DNA of 64,000 bases from Lachnospiraceae bacterium (GTDB lineage Bacteria > Bacillota > Clostridia > Lachnospirales > Lachnospiraceae): the NCBI GenBank assembly GCA_902363135.1, contig CABIZF010000013.1, positions 1-64,000 on the forward strand, in the 5' to 3' direction. Each line of letters starts with the position of its first letter. Position 1 is the first letter of the stretch. The notes under the pieces are model-generated. The model ran no database searches, was not told where the DNA came from, and saw only the letters and a list, made by a program, of their open reading frames with translations. Below are positions 7,861 to 24,039 of this stretch, one piece after another. Both the position numbers and the translations under genes were made by a program.

Positions 7861-7978
7861 CAAATCACACGTTCGTGCTAACTACTCCCTCATGGAATAT
7901 TCAATTACTTGATAGATATTATCAAATAAATATGGGTTTGTCAACAAAATTCGTGGTTTCAGGCTTTTGCCCCCAACT

Positions 7979-8150
7979 GATGCCTACGAATTGCTCCGCT
8001 GCGAAGCAGCTCTCGCAATTCTGCAAACATTCGAAATCCGCTGATTTACTACGTAAATCGCTACTTTCTCATGTTTGGCGGGTCCCAAGTTCAAAAGCCT
8101 TATCATGGCAAGCATGAACGACTTTTTGACCTTTTGACCCTGGTATCATC
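7979..8150 (+). repeat. Dispersed hairpin repeat, copy B1
   Basis: The copy reads rightwards. It has a first hairpin GAATTGC (7988-7994)/GCAATTC (8015-8021) with GCTGC/GCAGC inside. Next comes ATTCGAAATCCGCT, then hairpin GATTTAC-TAC-GTAAATC (8043-8059), the segment CGCTACTTTCTCATG, and an outer GGGTC/GACCC pair closing on CATGGCAAGCATG, ending TTTTGACCCTGGTATCATC at 8150. The gene that follows stops at 8151. About 65 bases are nearly identical, inverted, at 24035-23970. Confidence 0.85.
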
Positions 8151-9095
8151 TCAAAATATATCCAGCATATTATCCAGATAGATTTCCTCCCGAACCTGCA
8201 GCTGGTGCTCCGGTTTGGTCAGGTAATAGAGTAAAAATTCCAGAATCAGGGCACTGCCAAGCCCGCGGCCCTCGATCTTAAAGTTGGAAAAGCCAAGCGG
8301 AAGATAACGCTCCTGAATGTCTTTTACACCAATAAATCCCGGATTTTTCATTGCCTTTGAGAAACGGTAGCCATCGCCCGCATCCGGCGCGGTACAGCAG
8401 TGCTCCGAGGACAGGCCAAGATTCTTGCGGCTGACTGCCTCGTAGCAGGCCTTCCGATCTTTACAGGCGAACCAGCAGCATTCATTACACAAAAACTCTA
8501 CCTTATCTTTCTGTGACTGCGACAGCTGACCGAGCTTATCAAGCTGTTTATTCAGCCGGAAATCCGGCACCACATAGTGAAATACTTCCCGGTTCAGTTC
8601 CTCGATAAGCTGTGTAAAATCTGTCAGCACTTTTGTCGTCGATGAAACAAAATAAAAATCCGGGTACATATGTTCCAGATATTCCAACAGCAGCTCTGAA
8701 TGGACAATCACACCATTTTGTGGCCCTTCCTGTCCGGAAAACAGCTGACAGAGTGCATTGCACTTTGGATCTGCAAGATGCTCCTTTTGAAGCAGTGAAT
8801 TGCTGAACGTCAGTCTGGAAGAAATGTCATACTCCCGCATCAGCGCTAAAACGTCCCGCGGATCGGTCGTTCCAAACGAGGTTCGCCCTCCGCCCCAGAT
8901 ACAGTCCGAAGGTGCTCCATATATGGAAGCAATCTCACACCAGTCGTAAAAATACTCCCGGTGCATACGAAATAACGGCAAAAAGACACGGTACAATTCA
9001 TAAAATTCAAACAGGCCGGGAAGATGATAATAAGCAACCTTTTCTCCTGACAATGCCAGATTTGCATCATAACCTTTTTTGCCTATAATTTTCAT
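8151..9095 (-). CDS. Conserved protein, possibly U32-like TIM-barrel, with cysteine cluster
   Basis: The 314-residue soluble protein has no certain family assignment. It shows an alternating strand-helix pattern, a cysteine-rich region near residues 205-225 (CNECCWFACKDRK and CYEAV), two more cysteines in EHCCTAPD, and a closing segment SNFKIEGRGLGSALILEFLL. The phrase FKIEGR and the cysteines resemble the substrate-binding part of U32 peptidases and RlhA-type hydroxylases, which use an iron-sulfur-like cysteine set; this is a guess from pattern only. The start at 9095 is the only sensible one. It reads alone between repeat copy B1 and the HMA gene, from which it is separated by 130 bases. 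Confidence 0.5.
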   Translation of the reverse strand: MKIIGKKGYDANLALSGEKVAYYHLPGLFEFYELYRVFLPLFRMHREYFYDWCEIASIYGAPSDCIWGGGRTSFGTTDPRDVLALMREYDISSRLTFSNSLLQKEHLADPKCNALCQLFSGQEGPQNGVIVHSELLLEYLEHMYPDFYFVSSTTKVLTDFTQLIEELNREVFHYVVPDFRLNKQLDKLGQLSQSQKDKVEFLCNECCWFACKDRKACYEAVSRKNLGLSSEHCCTAPDAGDGYRFSKAMKNPGFIGVKDIQERYLPLGFSNFKIEGRGLGSALILEFLLYYLTKPEHQLQVREEIYLDNMLDIF

Positions 9096-9228: not shown

Positions 9229-9489
9229 TCACCTATCGAACAGCTTCCCAAACAGGCCCTTTTTCTCATACGGTGCACGACTGATTGATACGAGCTCGTA
9301 TCCGGTTTTTGCAATCGTGCTTTTCAGCGCCTCGTCCGGGATATCCTGTTCAGTCACGATGACAGTCTCACCCTTGGAATGGGAGGAGGTCACCTTCTTT
9401 ACCGGAAATGCGGCACGTACCGCATCGTTCATATGAGATTCGCACATGCCGCACTGCATGCCGTCAATTTTTAATGTAATCTGTGTCAT
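9229..9489 (-). CDS. Heavy-metal-associated (HMA) domain protein, CopZ-like
   Basis: The 86-residue protein is a single ferredoxin-like HMA domain with the metal motif GMQCGMC near residue 10 and the usual strand order to about residue 70. A basic tail YEKKGLFGKLFDR follows. Canonical CopZ chaperones carry Cu(I) to a P-type ATPase, but the ATPase upstream here is atypical and its own N-terminal domain lacks CxxC. The gene follows the 81-residue protein after 36 bases, so they share a transcript. Its role may be metal sensing or delivery near the iron block; this is inference. Confidence 0.8.
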   Translation of the reverse strand: MTQITLKIDGMQCGMCESHMNDAVRAAFPVKKVTSSHSKGETVIVTEQDIPDEALKSTIAKTGYELVSISRAPYEKKGLFGKLFDR

Positions 9490-9525
9490 AGTTCTGTGTC
9501 CTCTTTCTTTTTTGTTCCCCCATCA

Positions 9526-9771
9526 TCAGGAAGCAAGTCCTTCCGTATCAAAATGCATGAATGACAGCTCACAGCCCGCGATCCGGCTACAGATATTGAC
9601 AGCGGCATACATCACATTGAAATACTCTCCATCGATTGTTTCCACGATCATTGTATCCCGTTCGTCCGTGATAATCGCACGTTTAATATCGTCGCGTTCC
9701 TTTAATTCCCGCAAAATCTCAGCTGCCTGTTCTTCGGTCACTTTTTTTGATAAACGATAATATCTACCCAT
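9526..9771 (-). CDS. Small hypothetical protein, ferredoxin-like pattern
   Basis: The 81-residue product begins MGRYYRLSKKVTEEQAAEIL and continues with alternating strands and helices (KRAIITDERDTMIVET, EYFNVMYAAVNICSRI). This looks like a small beta-alpha-beta-beta-alpha-beta fold without the CxxC of HMA domains. I do not recognise the family. It has a GCAGGAGCAGG ribosome site and its own promoter at 9844, and is followed by the HMA gene. Its place next to the atypical P1B ATPase suggests a metal-related job. Confidence 0.6.
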   Translation of the reverse strand: MGRYYRLSKKVTEEQAAEILRELKERDDIKRAIITDERDTMIVETIDGEYFNVMYAAVNICSRIAGCELSFMHFDTEGLAS

Positions 9772-9843
9772 ACCTGCTCCTGCCTTTCCTTTCTGCGGCT
9801 ATAGTGTTGCCGTACTGTCATTCGAATTATCTAACCCGTTTGT

Positions 9844-9852
9844 ATTATAGCA
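9844..9852 (-). promoter_or_regulatory. Extended -10 promoter of the 81-residue/HMA operon
   Basis: On the minus strand TGCTATAAT (9844-9852) gives a perfect -10 box with the TG extension. The -35 region is only pyrimidine-rich. GTTAGATAATTCGAATGAC just downstream may be an operator. Confidence 0.55.
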
Positions 9853-9904
9853 CGTGAAAATGAAAAGAAAAGTGTTTTAATTGAGAACATTTTTCATTAA
9901 AAAA

Positions 9905-9929
9905 TCCCCTGCCACAGTTGCAGCAGGGA
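9905..9929 (-). terminator. Terminator of the P1B ATPase gene
   Basis: On the minus strand CCCTGC and GCAGGGG pair around GCAACTGTG and are followed by ATTTTTTAATG. It lies 70 bases past the ATPase stop and separates that gene from the promoter of the two small genes. Confidence 0.8.
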
Positions 9930-9998
9930 ACCATAAAGCAAATTACATTTATCCGTTTTATAAGGCTATACAGAAATCGACAATCAAATTTTCCAGTG

Positions 9999-12071
9999 TT
10001 ACAGCAAATTCTGCATGCTCTTCAGTCCAATCATCAGGGTTGACGTATTGTGCAGCAATGCCGAGGTCGTCGGCTGAAGTATACCTGCCACGCCAAGTCC
10101 GATCAGGCCAGAATTGAAGCCGACGATAAAACGGTAGTTCCAGTGGATGCGCTTCATCAGTGCCGCACTCAGCATCCGCAGCGCCACAATCTCCTGAAGG
10201 TCATCTGCACCGATCGTGATATCTGCGATCTCGCGTGCAATCTCTGCACCGTCGCTGATGGCAATGCCGACATCCGCAGCAGAAAGCGCCGGAGAATCGT
10301 TGATGCCGTCACCGATCATGATGACCTTGCGGCCTTTCTGCTTTTCCTGCTCGACAAAGTTCGCCTTATCCTCCGGAAGTACCTCGGAATAATATTCATC
10401 GACACCGACCTTGCGTGCGATCGCCTTTGCGGTTCGGTCACTGTCACCGGTCATCATGACGATTTTCTCAAAACCGCATTCCTTCAGCTGCTTTACGACC
10501 TCTGCCGCTTCTGTCCTCAGCGGATCCTCGATGCAGATGACCGCAGCCAGCTGTCCTTCCAATGCGAGATACAGGTGGGAATATTCCTCCGGTAAGGCTG
10601 CAAACCGCTCCTCCATACCTGTCGGGATCGTGCACTGTTCATCCTCAAATACGAAATGATGGCTTCCAATAATCGCCTTTTTTCCATTGATCGTCGTGGA
10701 AATGCCATGTGCGACGATATACTGCACCTTGGAATGCATTTCCTCGTGATCCAGATGACGCTCTTTTGCCGCATTGACGACGGCCTTCGCCATTGAGTGC
10801 GGGAAATGCTCCTCCAGGCAGGCTGCAATGCGGAGCAGTTCATCCGGGCTCATTCCATTAAATGATACGACGTCTGCAACCGTCGGCTTCGCCTCCGTCA
10901 GTGTGCCGGTCTTATCAAATACGATCGTCTTTGCATCAGCGACAGACTCCAGATATTTTCCGCCTTTAACGGTCATCTTATGTGTGTTCGCCTCACGGAT
11001 CGCAGAGAGCACCGAAATTGGCATCGCCAGCTTCAGGGCACAGGAGAAATCGACCATGAGCACAGCCAGCGCTTTCGTCGTGTTTCGCGTAATCAGGTAA
11101 GTCAGTCCCGTACCTGCAAGGGTGTATGGAACGAGGCGGTCTGCCAGATGCTCGGCCTTGCTCTCAAGGCCGGACTTCAGCTTCTCAGATTCCTCAATCA
11201 TTTTTACGATCTTCTCATAGCGGCTGGAGCCACCGACAGACTTCACAAGGACGGTGATTTCACCTTCTTCGACAGCCGTACCCGCATAAGCGGTGCTTCC
11301 TTCTCCCTTGCGTACCGGAACTGATTCTCCGGTCAGAGATGCCTGATTAACCATTGCCTCGCCTGCTGTGACGGTACCGTCAAACGGGATCACCGTACCC
11401 ATATGTACGACAACCTCATCACCGGCCTGTACCTGATCGCACGACACGAGCAGCTCCTGGCCGTCCTTCTTTACCCAGACACTTCCGACATTTAAGGACA
11501 TTGTTCTGGCCAGATCACCTACCGACTTCTTATGCGTCCACTCCTCCAGCAGTTCACCGATACCGAGCAGGAACATAATGGAGCCAGCCGTTCCCATATC
11601 ACCGCGTGCGACAGAGACGCCGATTGCAGTTGCATCGAGCACAGGCACCTCAATTTTCCGATGCCAGAGTGTCTGAATGCCTTTCCAGATATATTTTACA
11701 GACATCAGTGCCGTATAGCATGCATTGACCGGAGCCGGAAGGATCAGTCCTCTTCCGTAATGAAACAGAACCTTATTGACCAGCTTCTCCTGATACCTGC
11801 TGTTCAATTCCCGTCCGGAATTTGTCAGCACCGCACTCGGTGCCTGCACAGCTTCATAATGAAAACGCTGCAGTGCCTTCAAGAGGTCTGTGCGCGCCCC
11901 CTGATACTGAATTGCGGCATCTGCTGTGCGGTCATACACCTTCACTGCAGTCACGCCATCCAGTGACTCTAAATAATATTGAAGCAAATCCGCCTGTGTA
12001 TAAGTCATGCGCTTCTGCATAAAATGTACACGGATCCGCCCTTTCATCTCATGTTTAATCTGAAACTTCAA
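9999..12071 (-). CDS. Atypical P1B-type ATPase (candidate P1B-6, FezB-like)
   Basis: The 690-residue P-type ATPase begins with an HMA_2-like domain lacking CxxC but carrying an arginine-rich KGRIRVHF near residue 10. The ATPase core is complete: TGESVPV, DKTGTLT, MTGDSDRTA and GDGINDSPAL. In the metal-binding membrane helix, where copper and zinc pumps have CPC, it reads DFSCALKLAMP, so the first Cys-Pro is replaced by Phe-Ser. The start is TTG behind CAGGAGTG. Groups with this SC-type helix and an Arg-rich N-terminus include the ferrosome ATPase FezB. The gene sits downstream of feoAB, a Fur-type regulator and a small membrane protein. Iron as substrate is inference; an unrelated metal remains possible. 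Confidence 0.75.
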   Translation of the reverse strand: MKFQIKHEMKGRIRVHFMQKRMTYTQADLLQYYLESLDGVTAVKVYDRTADAAIQYQGARTDLLKALQRFHYEAVQAPSAVLTNSGRELNSRYQEKLVNKVLFHYGRGLILPAPVNACYTALMSVKYIWKGIQTLWHRKIEVPVLDATAIGVSVARGDMGTAGSIMFLLGIGELLEEWTHKKSVGDLARTMSLNVGSVWVKKDGQELLVSCDQVQAGDEVVVHMGTVIPFDGTVTAGEAMVNQASLTGESVPVRKGEGSTAYAGTAVEEGEITVLVKSVGGSSRYEKIVKMIEESEKLKSGLESKAEHLADRLVPYTLAGTGLTYLITRNTTKALAVLMVDFSCALKLAMPISVLSAIREANTHKMTVKGGKYLESVADAKTIVFDKTGTLTEAKPTVADVVSFNGMSPDELLRIAACLEEHFPHSMAKAVVNAAKERHLDHEEMHSKVQYIVAHGISTTINGKKAIIGSHHFVFEDEQCTIPTGMEERFAALPEEYSHLYLALEGQLAAVICIEDPLRTEAAEVVKQLKECGFEKIVMMTGDSDRTAKAIARKVGVDEYYSEVLPEDKANFVEQEKQKGRKVIMIGDGINDSPALSAADVGIAISDGAEIAREIADITIGADDLQEIVALRMLSAALMKRIHWNYRFIVGFNSGLIGLGVAGILQPTTSALLHNTSTLMIGLKSMQNLL

Positions 12072-12235
12072 AATTTATCACTCCTGTATCTGAAATTTCC
12101 TAATTCGTATCAAAGCGGATGTACGCACCCGCTTCATTATGACTTGCTTAATTCGCTTAAAAAGGGCTGCCATGCTGCAAACATGACACCCCTGTCGCTT
12201 CCTACGATAAAAATATACATTAGAACAGATGACGC

Positions 12236-12586
12236 TTACTCTGCCTCTGTTGTTTCCTCCGAAGCTGTTTCTTCCGTAGTTTCCTCGGTTTCTTCCTTGA
12301 AATCGCCTCCGATGATGTCGTCCTCTACATCCTCAAACGCCTCTTCTGCTGCTGCACGCTCTTCATTCATCTGCTTTGCACTCTCGTAAATGTCAGTTGC
12401 ATTCTCCTGTACGCAGGTAGCAGTCTTCATCACGCAGTCCTTTGCACGAAGAACGGCTGCAGTACAGCTTGTATAGAAATTCTTTGCATCCTTGCTTGAG
12501 AGTACCTTGATACCAGCTGTTCCGAACAGCACGCCTGCTGCAAAAAGTCCTGACTTCTTCCAGTTTAATACATCTTTGATATCCAT
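12236..12586 (-). CDS. DUF6110-like small membrane protein with acidic tail (FezA-like candidate)
   Basis: The 116-residue protein has one hydrophobic, glycine-spaced segment near residues 12-30 (GLFAAGVLFGTAGIKVL), a helical middle with two cysteines (KDCVMKTATCVQENATDIY), and a highly acidic threonine-rich tail (ETEETTEETASEETTEAE). The pattern matches the DUF6110 group of Clostridia. It lies directly upstream of the atypical P1B ATPase with a strong GGAGGAATTT ribosome site and its own promoter, so the two are probably made together. Small glycine-zipper membrane proteins accompany ferrosome ATPases in known fez operons; the match to that role is inference. Confidence 0.65.
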   Translation of the reverse strand: MDIKDVLNWKKSGLFAAGVLFGTAGIKVLSSKDAKNFYTSCTAAVLRAKDCVMKTATCVQENATDIYESAKQMNEERAAAEEAFEDVEDDIIGGDFKEETEETTEETASEETTEAE

Positions 12587-12618
12587 TGTAAATTCCTCCT
12601 CTGTAATGTATATGGTAG

Positions 12619-12648
12619 AAACACGGACTGCCTTTGCATTCCGTGTTT
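12619..12648 (-). promoter_or_regulatory. Leader hairpin before the DUF6110-like gene
   Basis: AAACACGGA (12619-12627) pairs perfectly with TCCGTGTTT (12640-12648). It lies between the promoter at 12662 and the ribosome site of the DUF6110-like gene, so the hairpin is in its leader. On the plus strand it is followed by TTTTTATC and could also stop transcription from the left. Confidence 0.55.
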
Positions 12649-12661
12649 TTATCTTCCGAGT

Positions 12662-12690
12662 ATTATAATCAACCTTTTTCTGTTTTGCAA
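12662..12690 (-). promoter_or_regulatory. Promoter of the DUF6110-like/P1B ATPase unit
   Basis: On the minus strand TTGCAA (12685-12690) is followed after 17 bases by TATAAT (12662-12667). It lies just past the Fur-type gene and gives the ATPase unit its own start site. Confidence 0.7.
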
Positions 12691-12721
12691 GCTTATATAT
12701 CTTTACTGATAAACTTTCTCA

Positions 12722-13189
12722 TTATGAAAGCTTTTCGCAAGCCTGTGGCATAATCTGAGCCACCTCCTGGTCTGCGATATACCCATACTCCTTCAGCCCG
12801 GCCCGGACAATGTTGTTCCACATGTGCGGGGGAACCTGGCAGATGGTATGGTCACTCAGTTCTACTGTATAAGCCTCCTTCACATCGCACTGCCTGTCAC
12901 AGGATATGCGGTAAAGATTCTTCCGGCTGATTGCCCCAATGCGTTCAAGCATATTGATCATACGGTATACCGTCGCCATTCCGATACCGGAGTCCTTCAT
13001 GGAAGCCTTATAATAAATTTCCTTACAGCAGGAGCATTCTTCTTCCAATATAATATCCAGCAGCGTCAGCCGCTGTTTCGTAATCCGACAACCCTGCTCC
13101 CGCAGACGGTTCAGGATCTGCTCCCTTTGCATTTTCGTTTTCTCATAACGGATGTTTTCTTCAGAATCCGTTCTGTCTGTGATGTCCAA
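12722..13189 (-). CDS. Fur-family metal-dependent transcriptional regulator
   Basis: The 155-residue protein has the Fur winged-helix domain at about residues 20-95: LREQGCRITKQRLTLLDIIL, then CSCCKEIYYKA and GIGMATVYRMINMLERIGAI. The C-terminal dimer part is diverged: the usual HHHH metal sites are absent and only scattered His and Cys remain (CDRQCDVKEAY, DHTICQVPPHMW). It may therefore sense something other than ferrous iron in the standard way. Translation starts at TTG (13187-13189) with GGAGGAGG upstream. It follows feoB and its Cys-rich partner, so it probably controls iron uptake or the downstream ATPase unit. Confidence 0.8.
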   Translation of the reverse strand: MDITDRTDSEENIRYEKTKMQREQILNRLREQGCRITKQRLTLLDIILEEECSCCKEIYYKASMKDSGIGMATVYRMINMLERIGAISRKNLYRISCDRQCDVKEAYTVELSDHTICQVPPHMWNNIVRAGLKEYGYIADQEVAQIMPQACEKLS

Positions 13190-13236
13190 TATTTGCAGCC
13201 TCCTCCGGAAATGTTATAGTTCCATCGGGGTCATGC

Positions 13237-13377
13237 TCAGTGGCAATGCCCTCCCCCGCAGTGCTTGCAGTCGCCGCCGCACTGAATGGATTTTCCTGCC
13301 TTTTTATCCTTGACCATACTGCGTACTGCCAGCCCGACAATCACCACCAGCACAAGTCCTACAATAATCGTTCCCAT
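13237..13377 (-). CDS. FeoB-associated Cys-rich membrane protein
   Basis: The 46-residue peptide has one membrane helix (TIIVGLVLVVIVGLAV), a basic stretch and a metal-binding tail (CGGDCKHCGGGHCH). This is the hallmark of the small proteins that follow feoB in many Firmicutes and may stand in for FeoC. I chose the ATG at 13377 because GGAGGTAT precedes it; the longer frame to 13461 has no membrane sense. It lies 110 bases after feoB. Confidence 0.85.
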   Translation of the reverse strand: MGTIIVGLVLVVIVGLAVRSMVKDKKAGKSIQCGGDCKHCGGGHCH

Positions 13378-13487
13378 ATTATACCTCCATGATATCTGCC
13401 TTTTTTCCAGTATACCAGAAGCGGTCAATAGCCGGCCCCGGCGCTTTCGCGTAACGGGCACCGGCTATACGTCCATAATCCTACTTT

Positions 13488-15983
13488 TTATTTTGCTTTT
13501 GAAACATTTACATCCATCTTCAGGGTCTTTGCCTCGTTATACGGGCGGAACAGCAAATACAGGAAGCCGATCACGATTGCAATTGCAACGATCGTCCATA
13601 CACTGAAGCCTGCACCGGTTACGAGCATACCAATTCTTGCTACGCAAAGAGATACGAGATATGCGAGACCGCACTGATATCCGATTGCGATCCAGAACCA
13701 CTTCGTGTTGTTCATCTCACGTTTGATTGCACCCATTGCTGCGAAGCACGGTGCACACAGAAGGTTGAATGCCATGAAGCTGTATCCGGTAATTGCAGTA
13801 AACTTGGAAGCCATCTCTGCATAAACACTTCCATCTCCGCCACCGTAAAGGATACCAAGTGTACCAACGATGTTCTCCTTTGCGACAAGTCCTGTGATAG
13901 AAGCCACAGCTGCCTGCCAGTTGCCCCAGCCCTGCGGAATAAAGAGCCAGCTGATTGCGTTTCCGATCATGGCAAGGATGCTGTAATCGATCTGATCCTC
14001 GGAGAGCATCTGGAACTTGCCGTCTACAACTCCAAAGTAAGTTGCAAACCAGATTACAATAGTAGAGCACAGGATGATGGTGCCTGCCTTCTTGATGAAG
14101 GACCAGCCGCGCTCCCACATGCTGCGAAGTACGCTGCCTACCGTCGGCAGATGGTAAGCCGGAAGCTCCATAACGAACGGAGCAGGATCACCGGAGAAGA
14201 GCTTCGTCTTCTTCAGGATGATACCGGAACAGATGATTGCTGCGATACCAAGGAAATATGCGGACGGTGCTACCCACGATGCGCCGCCGAAGATCGCACC
14301 TGCGATCATTGCGATAAACGGAACCTTTGCACCACACGGAATAAAGGTTGTGGTCATGATTGTCATCTTACGGTCATGGTCATTCTCAATGGTTCTGGAA
14401 GCCATGATACCAGGGATACCACATCCGCTTCCGATCAGCATCGGGATAAAGGATTTACCGGAAAGACCAAACTTCCGGAAGATACGGTCCATGATAAAGG
14501 CAACACGTGCCATGTAACCACAGCCCTCAAGGAAGGCAAGGAAGATAAACAGAATCAGGATCTGCGGAACGAATCCAAGTACTGCGCCGACACCGGCTAC
14601 GATACCATCCATGATCAGGCCATGCAGCCATCCGTCAGATACACCTGCTGCAGAAAGTACATTCTCAAGCAGTACCGGGATACCCGGGATCCATACGCCA
14701 TAGCCATCTGCCGGATCCGGAGCTTCACAGTTCCATTTCTCCATAACAGTGACTGCCTTTGCGAAATCTGCACCGGTCGCAGTCTCCTCGCTCTCTGCGA
14801 GTGTCTCTTCATCCTCTACGGTATAAGTGACACTTGCGTCCTCAGAAACGGTCGAAGCAAACTCCTTCAGTGCTGCGGTAGCCGCATCTGCGTCAAAGTC
14901 ATCTGACTCTGCATCCAGAGCTTCCACGACGCTATCCTCACCAGCATCCTCAGCAAATGCATTTACGATTGCAGATGCATTGTCAAATTCTTCGGTATCT
15001 CCATCAAAGGAGCTTCTGCCAACACCTGCAAGGAACCATCCATCTCCGAATACGCCGTCATTTGCCCAGTCTGTTGCGATGCCGCCGACGGTCGTAACCG
15101 ATACATAGTATACGATGTACATAACGACTGCAAAGATCGGAAGTGCCAGCCAGCGGTTTGTCACGATCTTATCAATCTTATCAGAAGTGGTCAGCTTATC
15201 TTTTCCGTGCTTTTTGGTCACACACTCTCCGATGATAGAGGATATGTACACATAACGCTCGTTCGTGATGATACTCTCCGTATCGTCGTCGAACTTATCT
15301 TCAAGCTCTTTAATCTCAGCAGATACATCCGGGACAGATGTCATCTGATCCTGAATCTTGTCATCCTTCTCCAGAAGCTTGATCGCGAAGAAACGCTTCT
15401 GCTCCTCCGGAATGCTGTTCAGCTTTGCTGCTACACGATCGATCACGGACTCTACTTCCGGTGCAAATTCATGTACGGAATGGAATGCGTTCTTCTTCTG
15501 TGCGATGGATACCGCCTTCTCTGCCGCCTTCTGGATACCGGTACCCTTCAGGGCAGAAATCTCAACAACCTCGCAGCCGAGACGCTTGCTCAGCTTATCT
15601 GTGTGGATCTTGTCGCCATTCTTCTCTACGACATCCATCATGTTGATTGCCATGATCACCGGAATGCCGAGCTCCATGATCTGTGTGGACAGATACAGGT
15701 TACGCTCGATGTTTGTTCCGTCAATGATATTGATGATTGCATCCGGACGGTCACCGATCAGATAGTTTCTTGCTACCACTTCCTCCAGCGTGTATGGAGA
15801 AAGGGAATAGATACCCGGAAGGTCCATGATGATTACATCCTTATGTCCCTTCAGCTTACCTTCTTTTTTCTCGACCGTAACACCCGGCCAGTTACCTACA
15901 AACTGATTGGATCCGGTCAGCGCGTTGAACAGAGTAGTCTTACCGCAGTTCGGGTTGCCGGCCAATGCGATTTTGATTGCCAT
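13488..15983 (-). CDS. feoB: Ferrous iron transporter FeoB
   Basis: The 831-residue protein starts with the G-protein domain: GNPNCGKTT at residue 9, the switch II DLPG near residue 54, and NMMD near residue 114. It continues through the helical regulatory domain into two Gate-containing membrane halves (for example GFVPQILILFIFLAFLEG and SGCGIPGIMASRTIEND). It imports Fe(II) across the membrane, driven by or gated by GTP. An unusual insert of about 100 acidic residues (roughly 325-425, rich in Asp, Glu and Ala) lies in an external loop between the first two membrane helices. Upstream are two feoA genes; downstream are the Cys-rich partner and a Fur-type regulator. Confidence 0.97.
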   Translation of the reverse strand: MAIKIALAGNPNCGKTTLFNALTGSNQFVGNWPGVTVEKKEGKLKGHKDVIIMDLPGIYSLSPYTLEEVVARNYLIGDRPDAIINIIDGTNIERNLYLSTQIMELGIPVIMAINMMDVVEKNGDKIHTDKLSKRLGCEVVEISALKGTGIQKAAEKAVSIAQKKNAFHSVHEFAPEVESVIDRVAAKLNSIPEEQKRFFAIKLLEKDDKIQDQMTSVPDVSAEIKELEDKFDDDTESIITNERYVYISSIIGECVTKKHGKDKLTTSDKIDKIVTNRWLALPIFAVVMYIVYYVSVTTVGGIATDWANDGVFGDGWFLAGVGRSSFDGDTEEFDNASAIVNAFAEDAGEDSVVEALDAESDDFDADAATAALKEFASTVSEDASVTYTVEDEETLAESEETATGADFAKAVTVMEKWNCEAPDPADGYGVWIPGIPVLLENVLSAAGVSDGWLHGLIMDGIVAGVGAVLGFVPQILILFIFLAFLEGCGYMARVAFIMDRIFRKFGLSGKSFIPMLIGSGCGIPGIMASRTIENDHDRKMTIMTTTFIPCGAKVPFIAMIAGAIFGGASWVAPSAYFLGIAAIICSGIILKKTKLFSGDPAPFVMELPAYHLPTVGSVLRSMWERGWSFIKKAGTIILCSTIVIWFATYFGVVDGKFQMLSEDQIDYSILAMIGNAISWLFIPQGWGNWQAAVASITGLVAKENIVGTLGILYGGGDGSVYAEMASKFTAITGYSFMAFNLLCAPCFAAMGAIKREMNNTKWFWIAIGYQCGLAYLVSLCVARIGMLVTGAGFSVWTIVAIAIVIGFLYLLFRPYNEAKTLKMDVNVSKAK

Positions 15984-16029
15984 TTCTCAATTCCCTCTTT
16001 CTGTCATAGTCTTTTTCAATGAAATCAGC

Positions 16030-16251
16030 TTATTCAACCTCGATCATTTCCGCGTCGGCTTTTCTTAAGGAAAGCTCATAGCCGCGGACTGTGACCTCTA
16101 CAGGATCTCCAAGCGGAGCAACCTTTCTTACATAAACCGGAACACCCTTTGTGATGCCCATGTCCATGATACGTCTCTTCACCGGTCCCTCGCCGTGCAG
16201 CCGCTTTACGGTAACAGTCTGGCCACAGGCAACTTCTCTTAATGTCTTCAT
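16030..16251 (-). CDS. feoA: FeoA, SH3-like partner of FeoB (second copy in operon)
   Basis: The 73-residue protein is a single FeoA/SH3-like barrel with the family segments VKRLHGEGPVKRRIMDMGIT and VRKVAPLGDPVEVTVRGYEL. FeoA binds the cytoplasmic part of FeoB and helps ferrous iron uptake. GAAGGAGAG precedes the ATG. It lies 46 bases upstream of feoB and 29 bases downstream of the other feoA. Confidence 0.93.
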   Translation of the reverse strand: MKTLREVACGQTVTVKRLHGEGPVKRRIMDMGITKGVPVYVRKVAPLGDPVEVTVRGYELSLRKADAEMIEVE

Positions 16252-16280
16252 GCTTCTCTCCTTCTTTCCTTCAATATGAA

Positions 16281-16490
16281 TCAGACAAGAATTTTATTGG
16301 CCATATCCTTGCCGATCGCTACACGGGAATCCTTGACGTTGACGATAATGTTACCACCCACTTCAGAAATTACGGTAACAACGCCCCCGACCACAAATCC
16401 GAGATTCTCAAGAAACCGGCGTGTCTCTTCCTTTCCGCCGATCTTCTTGATCACATTCGTCTCTCCGACATTTGCCATTGTAAGCGGCAT
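16281..16490 (-). CDS. feoA: FeoA-domain protein (first copy in operon)
   Basis: The product is a 69-residue FeoA barrel (GGKEETRRFLENLGFVVGGV, then VTVISEVGGNIIVNVKDSRV). The start is placed at the ATG at 16490 because AAGGAGG stands eight bases before it; an upstream ATG at 16517 would encode the ribosome site itself. Paired feoA genes are common in Clostridia. The gene has its own strong promoter at 16559-16587. Confidence 0.9.
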   Translation of the reverse strand: MPLTMANVGETNVIKKIGGKEETRRFLENLGFVVGGVVTVISEVGGNIIVNVKDSRVAIGKDMANKILV

Positions 16491-16558
16491 CATTTCATCC
16501 TCCTTCAGTTCATCCATGTCTTATTGATGGATTTTTTCATTTCTTTGTTTCCTACGTT

Positions 16559-16587
16559 AGTTTATTCTCATTTGCGTTAGATGTCAA
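16559..16587 (-). promoter_or_regulatory. feo operon promoter
   Basis: On the minus strand TTGACA (16582-16587) is followed after 17 bases by TAAACT (16559-16564). The repeated CTAACG on both sides of the -10 (about 16555 and 16575) may be part of a metal-regulator site. Confidence 0.75.
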
Positions 16588-16618
16588 CAAGTTTTATTGG
16601 CTTTTTACATCTTTCATC

Positions 16619-16653
16619 AGTAATGGCGAACCTTGGTGTGGTTCGCCATTACT
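16619..16653. terminator. Hairpin between flavodoxin and the feo genes
   Basis: AGTAATGGCGAACC pairs perfectly with GGTTCGCCATTACT around a 7-base loop. It lies between the flavodoxin stop and the feo promoter. The T-run is weak, so partial termination is likely. Confidence 0.7.
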
Positions 16654-16674
16654 TTATTGTGCAAAACTAACATT

Positions 16675-17100
16675 TCATGCAAGTGACTTACCAAGTTCCC
16701 GACAGGAAGCCTTTGCATCGTCATCCGGCTCCTCAGCGCAGATCACGGATTCATGTGCCAGTTCTGCACCTGCACTCTTACAGGTCTCCTCCCAGGTGCG
16801 CATCCACTCACCATCGCCCCATCCATAAGAGCCAAACAGTGCAATCTTCTTGCCGGAAAGCTTTGCCTCGCAAGCCTTGAACATCGGCTCAAATTCCGTA
16901 TCCTCGAGTTCCTCGGCTCCCATTGCCGGGCATCCGAATGCAACTGCATCGTAGGCATCCATTTTGTCTGCGGAGAATGTATCCGGTGTGAATACCTCTG
17001 CCTCTGCGCCTGCGCTCTTTGCACCCTCGGCCACCTCATTTGCCATTGCCTCTGTGTTACCTGTTCCACTCCAGTATACAACTGCAATTTTACTCATCAT
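16675..17100 (-). CDS. Flavodoxin
   Basis: The 140-141-residue protein has the flavodoxin FMN phosphate loop WSGTGNTEAMA at residues 10-20, the second loop FGCPAMGAEELED near residue 57, and the third loop FGSYGWGDGEWM near residue 90. Flavodoxins replace ferredoxin as electron carriers when iron is scarce, which fits its place between DUF3793 and feoA. Two adjacent ATG codons (17100 and 17097) could both start it. Confidence 0.93.
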   Translation of the reverse strand: MMSKIAVVYWSGTGNTEAMANEVAEGAKSAGAEAEVFTPDTFSADKMDAYDAVAFGCPAMGAEELEDTEFEPMFKACEAKLSGKKIALFGSYGWGDGEWMRTWEETCKSAGAELAHESVICAEEPDDDAKASCRELGKSLA

Positions 17101-17145
17101 TCCTACCTCTTTCTTATAAAATTTTCTTATAAAGCTTAATTTATG

Positions 17146-17703
17146 TCATGCAGCTACGGTGAGCTGCAGAACACTTCTTCCCTGCTGCCAGAGCCTCAGA
17201 TAGACGTCTCTGCATTTTTTATACTTTGCAAACAGTTTTACGGCCTCACATTCATTACAGTAGACCTTCCAGCATCCGGAGCATTTAAAATTCCGGCCTG
17301 CATTTTCAATAAAGCCAATAACATCTCCCAGCGGATAGCCAAGAAAAATTCCGATCTCATGTGGAAATCCTTCTCCCTCAAGATTGGATAAACGTTCCTT
17401 TAAATGTACAATCGCTTCATCTGCATCTGTACTGCGGTACCCGTATCTCTCCAGAAAATGCAGCACGCCCGGCTTTAATATATTTTCCTGCAGCCGTGTC
17501 TTCCGGCACACATAGACAAGTGCAGTCGCAGCGCGCTTTCGCAGCAAAATGACAGAAAGTCCTTTCTCTTTCATCTGTGCATTCCAGAATGCGATCTGCT
17601 CTGTTAACTCTTCTTCTGATGTATACGGCATACTGAACAGATTCGCCGTTTTCAATGATGCAAGCGTCGGAGAGCAATTCCCGATCAGATATTCCTCCAG
17701 CAT
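17146..17703 (-). CDS. DUF3793 family protein
   Basis: The 185-residue soluble protein matches the DUF3793 pattern: an N-terminal APTLAS-like segment (NCSPTLASLKTANLF), a central LRKRAATALVYVCRK, HEIGIFLGYPLGDVIGFIEN, and a C-terminal cysteine cluster with CSGCWKVYCNE and a YKKC. The function of the family is unknown. It is regularly found with flavodoxin and Feo genes in Clostridia, so an iron-limitation role is likely by association. It is 45 bases upstream of the flavodoxin gene. Confidence 0.82.
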   Translation of the reverse strand: MLEEYLIGNCSPTLASLKTANLFSMPYTSEEELTEQIAFWNAQMKEKGLSVILLRKRAATALVYVCRKTRLQENILKPGVLHFLERYGYRSTDADEAIVHLKERLSNLEGEGFPHEIGIFLGYPLGDVIGFIENAGRNFKCSGCWKVYCNECEAVKLFAKYKKCRDVYLRLWQQGRSVLQLTVAA

Positions 17704-17765
17704 AGCAGCCCCCTTTTTCCCGTTTCTTCTACCTGTTTTTTACAGTATCTCCGTTTGCCAAACTC

Positions 17766-18047
17766 TTATGCGCAATACTCGTTCAGCACGCCCTTTAACG
17801 CAGCTGCACTGCTTGTATGGATCCGCGCTACCGGGATGTTGTTGCGCTTTGCTTCCTGTGCTGCTGCCAGTACCATCTTATGGGAAACCGTATTTGTAAA
17901 CAGAATCAGAAGATCCGGATTGCCGATCTTCTTACGGATCGGTCCATTTTCCTTTGCAAATACCTTTGCCTTACAGCCAAAGCCCCTGCAAATGTCAGAA
18001 TACTGACAGACCATTCGCTCGTTACCACCTATAATTACAACGCTCAT
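17766..18047 (-). CDS. DUF2325 domain protein
   Basis: The 93-residue protein opens with VVIIGGNERM and has a Rossmann-like alternation of strands and helices to KRNNIPVARIHTSSAAALKG, typical of DUF2325. The family has no proven role; members occur next to metal and stress genes. GGAGGAAGTGT precedes the ATG. It is the first gene of the iron block transcript. Confidence 0.78.
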   Translation of the reverse strand: MSVVIIGGNERMVCQYSDICRGFGCKAKVFAKENGPIRKKIGNPDLLILFTNTVSHKMVLAAAQEAKRNNIPVARIHTSSAAALKGVLNEYCA

Positions 18048-18077: not shown

Positions 18078-18130
18078 TATTAGCTATCACTAACTATCGT
18101 TATGATATTATAACCCAGTAATTCTGTCAA
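18078..18130 (-). promoter_or_regulatory. Promoter and possible metal-regulator operator of the iron block
   Basis: On the minus strand TTGACA (18125-18130) is followed after 17 bases by TATCAT (18102-18107). Just downstream, two copies of GATAG five bases apart (GATAGTTAGTGATAG) lie over the start point and look like a Fur- or DtxR-type site. The regulator is inferred. Confidence 0.6.
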
Positions 18131-20951: not shown

Positions 20952-21314
20952 CTAATTTTCTTCTATGTGCTCCTGTCCCTGTGAGATGATTGTGCGGACA
21001 TGCTCATCCGCCAGAGAATAAAATACCGATTTCCCTTCCCTGCGGCTCTTCACCAGGCGGCTCTGCTTCAGGATCCGAAGCTGGTGGGAGATTGCCGACT
21101 GTGTCATGTTTAATGCTGCTGCCAGATCGCAGACGCACACCTCTGCCTCAAAGAGGACGAACAGAATCCGGATCCGCGTCGAGTCCCCAAAAATCTTAAA
21201 CAGCTCTGCCAGATCATACAGCTCCGTCTCCTCCGGAATCGTCTCTCGTACAATTTTCAGAAGATTTTCATGCACCTCTGTCACTTCACAGCATCCGATT
21301 TCCTTTTCTTCCAT
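20952..21314 (-). CDS. ArsR/SmtB-family metal-responsive repressor
   Basis: The 120-residue winged-helix protein has the alpha3 metal motif EVCVCDLAAALN (an ELCVCDL-type site) and recognition helix QSAISHQLRILKQSRLV. N-terminal CC (residues 8-9) could add ligands, as in CadC. It probably represses the HMA/P-ATPase operon until zinc, cadmium or lead bind. It lies last in the operon, 15 bases after the ATPase gene. Confidence 0.9.
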   Translation of the reverse strand: MEEKEIGCCEVTEVHENLLKIVRETIPEETELYDLAELFKIFGDSTRIRILFVLFEAEVCVCDLAAALNMTQSAISHQLRILKQSRLVKSRREGKSVFYSLADEHVRTIISQGQEHIEEN

Positions 21315-21329
21315 AATGCTGTATCCTTT

Positions 21330-23198
21330 CTATAAATTCTTCACAAACAGCGTACGGATTGCATTCAGCACAGCCAAAATCATGACTCCGACATCCGCAA
21401 AGATCGCCATCCACATGTTTGCGATACCGAGTGCGCCGAGCAGAAGGCAAAGAAGCTTGATACCGATCGCAAAATAAATGTTTTCATAGACAATGCGGAT
21501 ACATCTTTTCGAAATTCGGATCGCTGTCGCAATCTTTATCGGATCGTCATCCATCAGCACGATATCGGCCGCCTCGATCGCCGCATCGCTTCCCATTGCA
21601 CCCATCGCGATACCGATATCTGCACGGGACAGTACCGGTGCATCATTGATACCGTCTCCGACAAATGCCAGTGTTTCGTTTTTGCCTTTCTTCAAGAGCA
21701 GCTCTTCGACGCGGGATACCTTGTCTGCCGGAAGCAGTTCACTGTGCACTTCATCAATACCAAGCTCTTTTGCCACCGTATCTGCGACCTGCTTCCGGTC
21801 GCCTGTCAACATAACAGTACGGGTAACACCTGCCTTTTTCAGATTCTCAATCGCCTGCTTTGCATGCGGCTTGATCCGGTCAGAGATCAGGATGTGTCCG
21901 GCATATGCGCCATCTATCGCCACATGTACGACCGTTCCGACCTGGTGGCACTCCACCGCAGGGATACCGAGCCGTTCCATCAGCTTTGTATTGCCGACCG
22001 CAACTGCGGTTCCGTCCACCTTTGCGGTAATACCATTGCCGCCGATCTCCTCAATATCTGATACTCTGCATCGATCCAGCGGCTTTCCGCAGGCCTTCTG
22101 CAGACTCTTACTGATCGGATGTGAAGATGCGCTCTCAGCCAGCGCCGCATACTCCAGCAGCTTCTGATCCTCCATACTGTTGTGATGCACGCCGGTCACT
22201 TCAAAGACGCCCTCCGTCATCGTACCGGTCTTGTCAAATACAACGGTCTTCGTCTGTGAGAGTGCTTCCAGATAGTTCGAACCCTTCACAAGCACCCCGG
22301 CCTTACTTGCTCCGCCGATACCGGCAAAAAATCCGAGCGGGATACTGATGACGAGCGCACACGGGCAGCTGATAACAAGGAATGTCAGTGCGCGGTAAAC
22401 CCAGTCCCCCCACATCGGAGACAGCCCCATAAAGATCATCCGAGCAAGCGGCGGGAGAATCGCCAGCGCCAGTGCGCCATAGCAGACCGCCGGTGTATAA
22501 TACCTTGCAAATTTTGAGATAAAGTTCTCAGATCGGGATTTTAAGGAACTGGAATTTTCCATAAGCTCCAGGATCTTGGATACCGTGGACTCGCCGAACT
22601 CCTTTGTCGTCCGAATGCGGATCAGACCGCTCATATTGATGCATCCGCTGATGACCTCATCACCTTCTGCAACCTCACGCGGCAGGCTCTCTCCGGTCAG
22701 TGCGCTTGTATTCAGAGAAGTCTTTCCTTCGGTCACGATACCGTCGATCGGTATCTTTTCACCCGGCTGTACAACGATGATCGTTCCGACTGCCACCTCG
22801 TCCGGATCGACCTTTTCCAGCTTTCCATCCTGCTCAATGTTTGCGTAATCCGGCCGAATATCCATCAGATCACTGATATTCCGGCGGCTCTTGCCGACCG
22901 CATAGCTCTGGAACAGCTCGCCGATCTGATAAAACAGCATTACGGCTACGCCTTCCTTGTAGTCTCTTAAAAGAATTGCACCGATGGTCGCGACCGCCAT
23001 CAGGAAATTCTCATCAAATACCTGGCGGTTCAGAATACCCTTCCACGCTTTTTTCAGAATATCATAACCGATGACCAGATATGGAATCATAAACAGCCCA
23101 AACTGTACATATCCGTCAATCGGAAGCATGGAAAACAAGACAATCAGTACAGCGGAAACAATGATCCTCGCCAGCATCTTTTTCTGCTTCTTATTCAT
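21330..23198 (-). CDS. Zinc/cadmium/lead-type P1B ATPase
   Basis: The 622-residue ATPase has the CPC metal helix (VISCPCALVISIPLGF), phosphorylation motif DKTGTMTEG, TGES, the HP locus (SSHPISKSL) and GDGINDAPVL. It lacks an N-terminal metal domain; the separate 72-residue HMA protein upstream may provide it. It expels Zn(II), Cd(II) or Pb(II). The ArsR partner and operator support this. The gap to the HMA gene (235 bases) holds a repeat copy and two alternative hairpins. Confidence 0.93.
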   Translation of the reverse strand: MNKKQKKMLARIIVSAVLIVLFSMLPIDGYVQFGLFMIPYLVIGYDILKKAWKGILNRQVFDENFLMAVATIGAILLRDYKEGVAVMLFYQIGELFQSYAVGKSRRNISDLMDIRPDYANIEQDGKLEKVDPDEVAVGTIIVVQPGEKIPIDGIVTEGKTSLNTSALTGESLPREVAEGDEVISGCINMSGLIRIRTTKEFGESTVSKILELMENSSSLKSRSENFISKFARYYTPAVCYGALALAILPPLARMIFMGLSPMWGDWVYRALTFLVISCPCALVISIPLGFFAGIGGASKAGVLVKGSNYLEALSQTKTVVFDKTGTMTEGVFEVTGVHHNSMEDQKLLEYAALAESASSHPISKSLQKACGKPLDRCRVSDIEEIGGNGITAKVDGTAVAVGNTKLMERLGIPAVECHQVGTVVHVAIDGAYAGHILISDRIKPHAKQAIENLKKAGVTRTVMLTGDRKQVADTVAKELGIDEVHSELLPADKVSRVEELLLKKGKNETLAFVGDGINDAPVLSRADIGIAMGAMGSDAAIEAADIVLMDDDPIKIATAIRISKRCIRIVYENIYFAIGIKLLCLLLGALGIANMWMAIFADVGVMILAVLNAIRTLFVKNL

Positions 23199-23782: not shown

Positions 23783-24039
23783 TGATGATGCCAGGGTCAA
23801 AATCCTGAAACCACGATGTGCTTGCACAGGAGTGGTTTTATGGCTTAATGACCCGCTCCGATATGAGCATAAAAGTGGAGCGCAAGCTTCACGATATGCT
23901 CATATCGGGGCAGGATTGTGGGAGTACGAAGTACGGAACAATCCGTAAGGCATCTTTTGACCTTAATATCTTTTGAACTTGAGACCCGCCAAACATGAGA
24001 AAGTAGCGATTTACGTAGTAAATCAGCGGATTTCGAATT
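23783..24039 (-). repeat. Dispersed hairpin repeat, long copy B2
   Basis: Read on the minus strand it starts ATTCGAAATCCGCTGA, has hairpin GATTTAC-TAC-GTAAATC (24007-24023), then CGCTACTTTCTCATGTTTGG and ends TTTTGACCCTGGCATCATC near 23783. Unlike B1 and B3 it carries extra hairpins: a 12-bp stem CGATATGAGCAT (23859-23870)/ATGCTCATATCG (23896-23907) with GAGC/GCTT inside, and GGATTGT/ACAATCC (23913-23944). Its end supplies the last codons and stop of the ttcA-like gene. Confidence 0.85.

Follow-up and report, generated by a model that had tools for sequence, protein, structure and literature searches.

A putative FezA/FezB-type iron-storage gene pair neighbouring a feo operon in a Lachnospiraceae bacterium

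Do a small membrane protein and a metal-pumping ATPase, encoded side by side next to genes for ferrous iron uptake (Feo), form an iron store of the ferrosome type in Lachnospiraceae? The question is raised by a block of genes in a stretch of 64,000 nucleotides from a Lachnospiraceae bacterium (assembly GCA_902363135.1, contig CABIZF010000013.1, forward strand positions 1–64,000), all of which we refer to as the window. The block lies on the minus strand and encodes, in 5' to 3' order, a DUF2325 protein, a DUF3793 protein, a flavodoxin, two FeoA proteins, FeoB, a FeoB-associated Cys-rich protein, a Fur-like regulator, a DUF6110 protein and a P1B ATPase. A first-pass annotation had listed these genes and had read the last two as possible FezA- and FezB-like parts of a candidate ferrosome-like store joined to the Feo operon. 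Every gene on that list was found on the minus strand at the position claimed, and the families are backed by Pfam models and partly by NCBIfam models. We consider that the DUF6110 and ATPase genes are best explained as a FezA/FezB-type iron-storage pair, with a probability of about 0.6.

For comparison we used DUF6110 loci (numbered with the prefix L) from the best 80 of at least 491 relatives confirmed in named genomes. Of these loci, 35 span less than 20 kb, which bears on the FeoB counts given below.

Results

Features of the P1B-6-type ATPase

The ATPase gene (9999–12071, minus strand) has a TTG start and encodes a FezB-like protein of 690 amino acids with the Pfam domains E1-E2_ATPase and Hydrolase, and its predicted structure has a P1B fold over residues 86–690. 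The M4 motif is DFSCALKLAMP in place of CPC, in agreement with the earlier remark that CPC is absent. An HN motif is located in the last helix, at the C-terminus, and an N-terminal match to HMA_2 stays below the Pfam threshold. D[FYI]SC[AV] is found in M4 of 95 related rows, none of which has CPC, and 91 of them also carry HN.[ST]T; the remaining ones (L014, L030, L048 and L056) are truncated.

An Arg-rich motif in the N-terminus of the ATPase is a trait of ferrosome systems. The Arg-rich N-terminus that had been pointed out in the window protein reads HEMKGRIRVHF, and neither R12 nor R14 varies over 29 rows. Of 97 rows, 82 have GRxR among their first 140 residues, and two of the 97 are CPC pumps admitted by a loose filter.

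In a tree of 35 rows, the window ATPase and 26 pumps of the SCA/HN type (27 rows) are split from eight CPx pumps with a branch support of 100/100. The CPx side includes the window's own CPC pump (CadA), ZntA and CopA from Escherichia coli, CadA from Staphylococcus and a DUF1490-linked pump from Rhodococcus. Branching with copper or zinc pumps had been named in the first-pass annotation as an outcome that would refute its proposal; the ATPase groups with P1B-6-type pumps instead, and the proposal is not refuted on this point. Judged by its sequence, the protein belongs to the P1B-6 group of P1B pumps. Among the 120 matches listed, most of them unnamed, its nearest named relative is from Fusicatenibacter (77% identity), also in the Lachnospiraceae, and its neighbours in the tree are from Hominisplanchenecus, Blautia and Coprococcus.

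DUF6110 as a standing partner of the pump

The FezA candidate (12236–12586, minus strand) is a protein of 116 amino acids that matches PF19605 with 128.2 bits (cut-off 26), which bears out its earlier description as a DUF6110-like, glycine-rich membrane protein with an acidic tail. The single hydrophobic, glycine-rich segment spans residues 12–30 and is followed by a long acidic tail that contains neither His nor Cys.

A P1B-6 gene directly follows DUF6110, within 0.7 kb, in 79 of the 80 loci; the lone exception (L068) has no pump in the 0.9 kb that remain to the end of its contig. One sample of Lachnospiraceae had DUF6110 in 60 of its 150 genomes, with 59 over the family cut-off. The pairing extends to a second order, which we call Tissierellales-like because its matches are named Peptoniphilus, Anaerococcus and Tissierellia. 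DUF6110 is present there in 39 of 199 genomes, and the pump adjoins it in all 30 loci fetched from the 39 matching genomes. One locus of this kind (L177, 1450–4979, from a Peptoniphilus-type genome) has, behind the DUF6110-ATPase pair, a gene that by eye resembles an ApbE flavin transferase. In a draw of genomes from the whole phylum, DUF6110 occurs in six of 299, the centre genome included, with four over the cut-off, and the pump lies beside five of seven matches. An annotated DUF6110 gene also precedes the pump in both Deinococcus plasmid loci that we read; a tblastn search of plasmids with two clostridial DUF6110 proteins gave no match, despite these two annotated genes.

Passages of PMC9374683 have already described DUF6110 genes as usually accompanying those for P1B6 pumps. 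The word 'ferrosome' does not occur in the main texts of two papers that mention DUF6110 (PMC9374683 and PMC13043812), and no link between DUF6110 and ferrosomes was found in the literature searched, which left out two primary ferrosome papers.

Operator-like sequences upstream of the pair

A Fur-type box, TGAGAAAGTTTATCA, is located on the minus strand at 12707–12721, 121 bases before the DUF6110 start. It directly follows the Fur-like gene and precedes a promoter-like site (12662–12690, minus strand; TTGCAA-17-TATAAT, 10 of 12 matches). The box is an exact copy of TGAKAANNNTTMTCA, a Fur-type consensus that we refined from the upstream regions of the 80 relatives, and has three mismatches to the textbook Fur box. 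Promoter-like sites are not enriched across the region (17 versus 14.4 by chance). At the other end of the pair, a terminator-like hairpin with 13 pairs and a T-rich tail follows the ATPase gene (9903–9932, minus strand), and such hairpins do exceed chance in the region (16 versus 7.5).

The recurrence of the box was assessed against shuffled controls, which were first-order Markov resamples. Upstream of DUF6110 the best match to the textbook Fur box has on average 3.70 mismatches, versus 4.93 after shuffling (81 regions), and a match with at most two mismatches is found in 16 of 80 regions (0.30 shuffled), six of 29 held-out regions (0.25) and two of 30 Tissierellales-like regions (0.25). With at most one mismatch, TGAKAANNNTTMTCA is found before DUF6110 in 50 of 80 regions (0.3 shuffled), the same set having served to refine the consensus. 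It recurs in 10 of 29 held-out Lachnospiraceae (0.10 shuffled), in eight of the 24 left once regions that have half of their 12-mers in common with the first set are removed (0.20), and in four of 30 of the Tissierellales-like set (0.15). As controls, TGAKAANNNTTMTCA was found in none of 79 ATPase coding sequences and in none of 79 regions before the ATPase. The textbook box is not enriched over the window as a whole (eight matches with at most three mismatches versus 4.7 by chance), nor is a 19-base DtxR box enriched before DUF6110 (8.16 versus 8.29 mean mismatches). The window pair may be repressed by iron and Fur; the sign of this is a Fur-type box at the level of sequence.

A different operator marks the other end of the block. 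A dyad, TTAGTGATAGCTAA, precedes DUF2325 (18080–18093, minus strand) and is an exact match to TTAGNNNNNNCTAA, which we take to be DtxR-like. Among 17 loci from relatives, 15 have TTAGNNNNNNCTAA before FeoA (0.2 shuffled), and 11 of 17 have it before DUF3793 (0.2). The region before FeoA in the window has TTAGNNNNNNCTAA with one mismatch and has no Fur-type box at two or fewer mismatches. In relatives the Fur-type box also precedes FeoA in nine of 17 loci (0.3 shuffled), and a longer DtxR-type dyad, with at most one mismatch, precedes DUF6110 in 13 of 80 loci (0.2 shuffled). From these operator-like sequences, the block may be under two iron regulators, and since the operators are mixed between the two sets of genes in relatives, the parts read as adjacent iron units whose control overlaps.

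Linkage to feo

The pair clusters with feo more often than expected by chance. Twenty of the 80 DUF6110 loci have FeoB in the flanks that were fetched, and in 14 it lies close. About one locus of the 80 would be expected to have FeoB by chance, an estimate based on 51 FeoB_C matches in a hand-picked set of 22 genomes (3.0–5.9 Mb). The order from FeoA to the ATPase is kept in L016, L022, L036, L039, L051 and L069. In L031 the pair comes first with feo behind it, and in L064, L070 and L075 kilobases separate the two sets. One or more of DUF2325, DUF3793 and flavodoxin is present in 23 of the 80 loci. Of the earlier statement that the storage genes are 'joined' to the Feo operon, the linkage itself stands, as it recurs in relatives and in more than one gene order. 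However, 'neighbouring' fits better, as in the window a promoter-like site and a Fur-type box precede the pair itself and a DtxR-type dyad precedes DUF2325, a split that is only partial in relatives.

All parts of a Feo uptake operon are present by Pfam and NCBIfam models, namely FeoA, the FeoB GTPase-permease and its Cys-rich partner, and all are on the minus strand. The two FeoA genes are at 16281–16517 (PF04023, 60.9 bits) and 16030–16251 (PF04023, 79.5 bits). FeoB (13488–15983) matches the ferrous iron transporter model TIGR00437 with 548.6 bits (cut-off 315.65) as well as Pfam FeoB_N, Gate and FeoB_C. The FeoB-associated Cys-rich membrane protein (13237–13461; PF12669, 65.9 bits) likely starts at the ATG at 13377. 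Upstream, on the same strand, are the DUF2325 gene (17766–18047; PF10087, 113.5 bits), the DUF3793 gene (17146–17703; PF12672, 201.2 bits) and the gene for a short-chain flavodoxin (16675–17100), which matches TIGR01753 with 150.3 bits (cut-off 123) and Pfam Flavodoxin_1 with 76 bits. An inverted repeat of 14 pairs (16619–16653) lies between flavodoxin and FeoA and, read on the minus strand, is not followed by a T-run.

A Fur-like regulator with a diverged sensor half

Between feo and the pair lies a gene (12722–13189, minus strand) for a Fur-like regulator that keeps the winged helix and is diverged in its metal-sensing half. The Pfam FUR match covers only the DNA-binding half, residues 31–93, as expected of the diverged Fur protein that had been noted here. 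Forty of the 80 loci have the gene; in 31 it stands no more than 0.9 kb upstream of DUF6110, and none of the 14 loci with FeoB close by lacks it. A model of the protein (pLDDT 81.5, pTM 0.51) recovered members of the Fur family (Fur, Mur, PerR, Zur and Nur) among the 50 structure matches listed, with query TM-scores of 0.33–0.48.

The C-terminal half of Fur normally carries a conserved, His-rich metal site. In an alignment of 27 relatives of the window protein there is no conserved His column in this half, and the conserved columns are D113, T115, L119, V127, G131, G136 and Y137. Within the winged helix, C55 does not vary and C52 hardly does. From its sequence, the protein looks like an offshoot of Fur whose sensor has changed. 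A further reading, conceivable though rather unlikely, is that a mobile iron island is common in gut Lachnospiraceae and couples Feo genetically with a ferrosome-type store under this dedicated offshoot, which would have lost its His metal site and would carry the conserved C52/C55 pair in its DNA-binding half, and so may sense something other than free ferrous iron.

Surroundings of the block

Two small genes on the minus strand that the first-pass annotation did not mention lie within its range, beyond the terminator-like hairpin. The first (9526–9771) encodes a protein of 81 amino acids with no Pfam match above cut-off and is a neighbour that is probably outside the pair. The second (9229–9489) encodes an HMA domain protein of 86 amino acids (PF00403, 25.1 bits, cut-off 24.8) with a CxxC motif, CGMC, and is probably a metal chaperone. 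A Fur-type site with one mismatch is located at 9882–9896, between the hairpin and these two genes.

Farther out, a protein of 314 amino acids that contains Cys (8151–9095) has no Pfam match at E 0.5. Two Clostridiales-1 RNAs (RF01699) flank the region on opposite strands, at 7978–8148 (minus strand, 116.6 bits) and 23786–23955 (plus strand, 120.8 bits). Also near the block is a pair of the ArsR-CadA type, with a CPC pump, at 20952–23198; in Blautia wexlerae (L069, 13532–15834) relatives at 86% and 81% identity adjoin the same fez-like pair.

Discussion

Comparison with known systems

In Clostridioides difficile, the membrane protein FezA and the transporter FezB are required for ferrosomes and are repressed by Fur, according to passages of a review (PMC12574912), and fezAB is given as CD630_05910–05920 in part of PMC11651100. 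In an excerpt from an iron and Fur table (PMC6311696), which came without column heads, CD630_05910 is labelled 'ATPase' and CD630_05920 'hypothetical protein', and both have positive values, which we took as increases in low iron and in a fur mutant; the order of these labels runs opposite to fezA-fezB. The C. difficile fezXAB genes are like the window pair in that genes for a small membrane protein and for a P1B-6 ATPase form a unit, both in Clostridia; control by iron and Fur is reported for C. difficile fez, and a Fur-type box is present in the window. In contrast, a Fur-like gene and the feo operon adjoin the window pair, whereas a feo set of C. difficile (CD630_14770–14790) is distant in gene numbering.

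No FezB named as C. difficile was among the 120 matches, most of them nameless, listed in a search with a Peptoniphilus-type FezB. A 16S probe search for C. difficile in a phylum draw of 398 genomes gave nothing above 91% identity over a long stretch and one match of 94% over 157 bases only; in the Tissierellales-like order the best identity was 93%, and C. difficile was also not found in two orders of 10 and 8 or in a family of 3.

The six-gene fez cluster of Rhodopseudomonas palustris is RPA2333–2338 (part of PMC12016538). Two plasmids carry clusters that resemble such six-gene sets, one from Azospirillum (L192, 3093–7079) and one from Arcobacter (L191, 3037–7106), each with HMA_2 proteins, a protein annotated as YtxH and a P1B-6 pump; the Arcobacter cluster is flanked by a divergent DUF2325 gene. 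As in the window, the Azospirillum plasmid has a P1B-6 ATPase of the SCA/HN type with a small membrane protein gene just before it. Unlike the window, it has two HMA_2-type proteins, one of them with a sub-threshold match to DUF4405. The similarity of its YtxH-like partner to DUF6110 is weak in a profile comparison (34% probability; 27% for the Arcobacter cluster). The window genes are probably a FezA/FezB-type pair in the clostridial style and not a six-gene fez cluster, and the pair seems to be a widespread relative of an already known system, not a system of a new kind.

Alternative explanations

The strongest rival is a plasma-membrane exporter of iron, zinc or manganese, in which DUF6110 would organise the pump as PacL does CtpC and no organelle would form. 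DUF6110 is called PacL-like, and the usual partner of P1B6 pumps, in parts of PMC9374683 and PMC13043812, and membrane platforms are proposed for such pairs in PMC9374683, where ferrosomes are unmentioned in the main text. The mycobacterial PacL1-CtpC pair (DUF1490) likewise combines a small single-pass membrane protein that has an acidic cytoplasmic part with an adjoining P1B pump bearing an HN motif. In addition, the DUF1490-linked Rhodococcus pump, which has CPC, adjoins the SCA/HN clade in the midpoint-rooted tree, and a profile comparison of DUF6110 with the Rhodococcus DUF1490 protein gave a probability of 48%. However, the window protein belongs to DUF6110 rather than DUF1490 and lacks the C-terminal metal-binding motif of PacL, its acidic tail being free of His and Cys, and the window pump has DFSCALKL in M4, where a CtpC-type pump has CPC, combined with an HN motif. 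The Fur-type box that recurs before DUF6110 is that of an iron repressor, which is unexpected for an exporter of excess iron and therefore weighs against pure iron export without settling the matter. Taken together, an exporter seems to us somewhat doubtful but a serious contender. A resistance pump for cadmium or zinc, near iron genes by accident, is very improbable. The ATPase does score above cut-off with the NCBIfam 'cadmium family' model TIGR01512 (356.5 bits versus 313.5), and an ArsR-CadA pair is 9 kb away, but the tree gives no backing to the cadmium label, placing the ATPase apart from all eight CPx pumps including the CadA of the window, and the ATPase has neither CPC nor an adjoining ArsR gene.

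It is also improbable, though less so, that all genes form a single iron operon in which the ATPase and FeoB serve iron handling across the envelope, for example export to load surface or secreted proteins, with no storage. This would suit the placement of all genes on one strand, the consecutive FeoB, Cys-rich partner, Fur-like, DUF6110 and ATPase genes in an order common to the six loci listed above, and the overlap of operators in relatives. It is at odds with the permuted order in L031, with the distance between the sets in L064, L070 and L075, and with the window pair having its own Fur-type box while none at two or fewer mismatches precedes the window FeoA. Several observations weigh against an iron-storage pair itself, the TIGR01512 score among them. 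The likeness to proven FezA and FezB proteins is drawn from descriptions, and no match to DUF4405, to which the FezC cytochrome of multi-gene fez clusters (Desulfovibrio magneticus and R. palustris type) is similar, was found at E 0.01 among the 20 window proteins scanned. The box is present in just 10 of 29 held-out and four of 30 second-order upstream regions. The flanks of 60 of the 80 loci have no FeoB, from which it follows that the pair can do without an adjacent feo. Finally, two of the seven matches in the phylum draw are without such an ATPase, one a second copy in its genome (L084) and the other a frame of 289 amino acids below the cut-off that is seemingly spurious (L086). We nevertheless favour the FezA/FezB-type reading, for which the P1B-6 placement in the tree, DUF6110 as a standing partner of the pump, the Fur-type box and the recurrent link to feo all speak; on this reading the two proteins would be homologous to proven FezA and FezB, and an organelle would form.

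Proposed mechanism and significance

The features observed directly are gene content, strand, the P1B-6 type, the conserved pairing and an operator-like sequence upstream, and a storage mechanism can be outlined from them. Upon iron starvation, a Fur-type repressor would be released from the box at 12707–12721, and the DUF6110-ATPase pair would be expressed alongside the adjacent Feo importer and the iron-saving flavodoxin. By analogy with C. difficile fez, the pair would be made when iron is lost and would be ready to store the iron that FeoB delivers. Once FeoB brings ferrous iron back in, the ATPase may move it across a membrane into a compartment that the DUF6110 protein would pattern, where the iron would be stored.

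Ferrosomes have so far been demonstrated in few bacteria, and whether other pathogens or commensals make them is asked in the review cited above (passages of PMC12574912). If the pair described here makes iron stores, common gut commensals would compete for iron through storage besides uptake.

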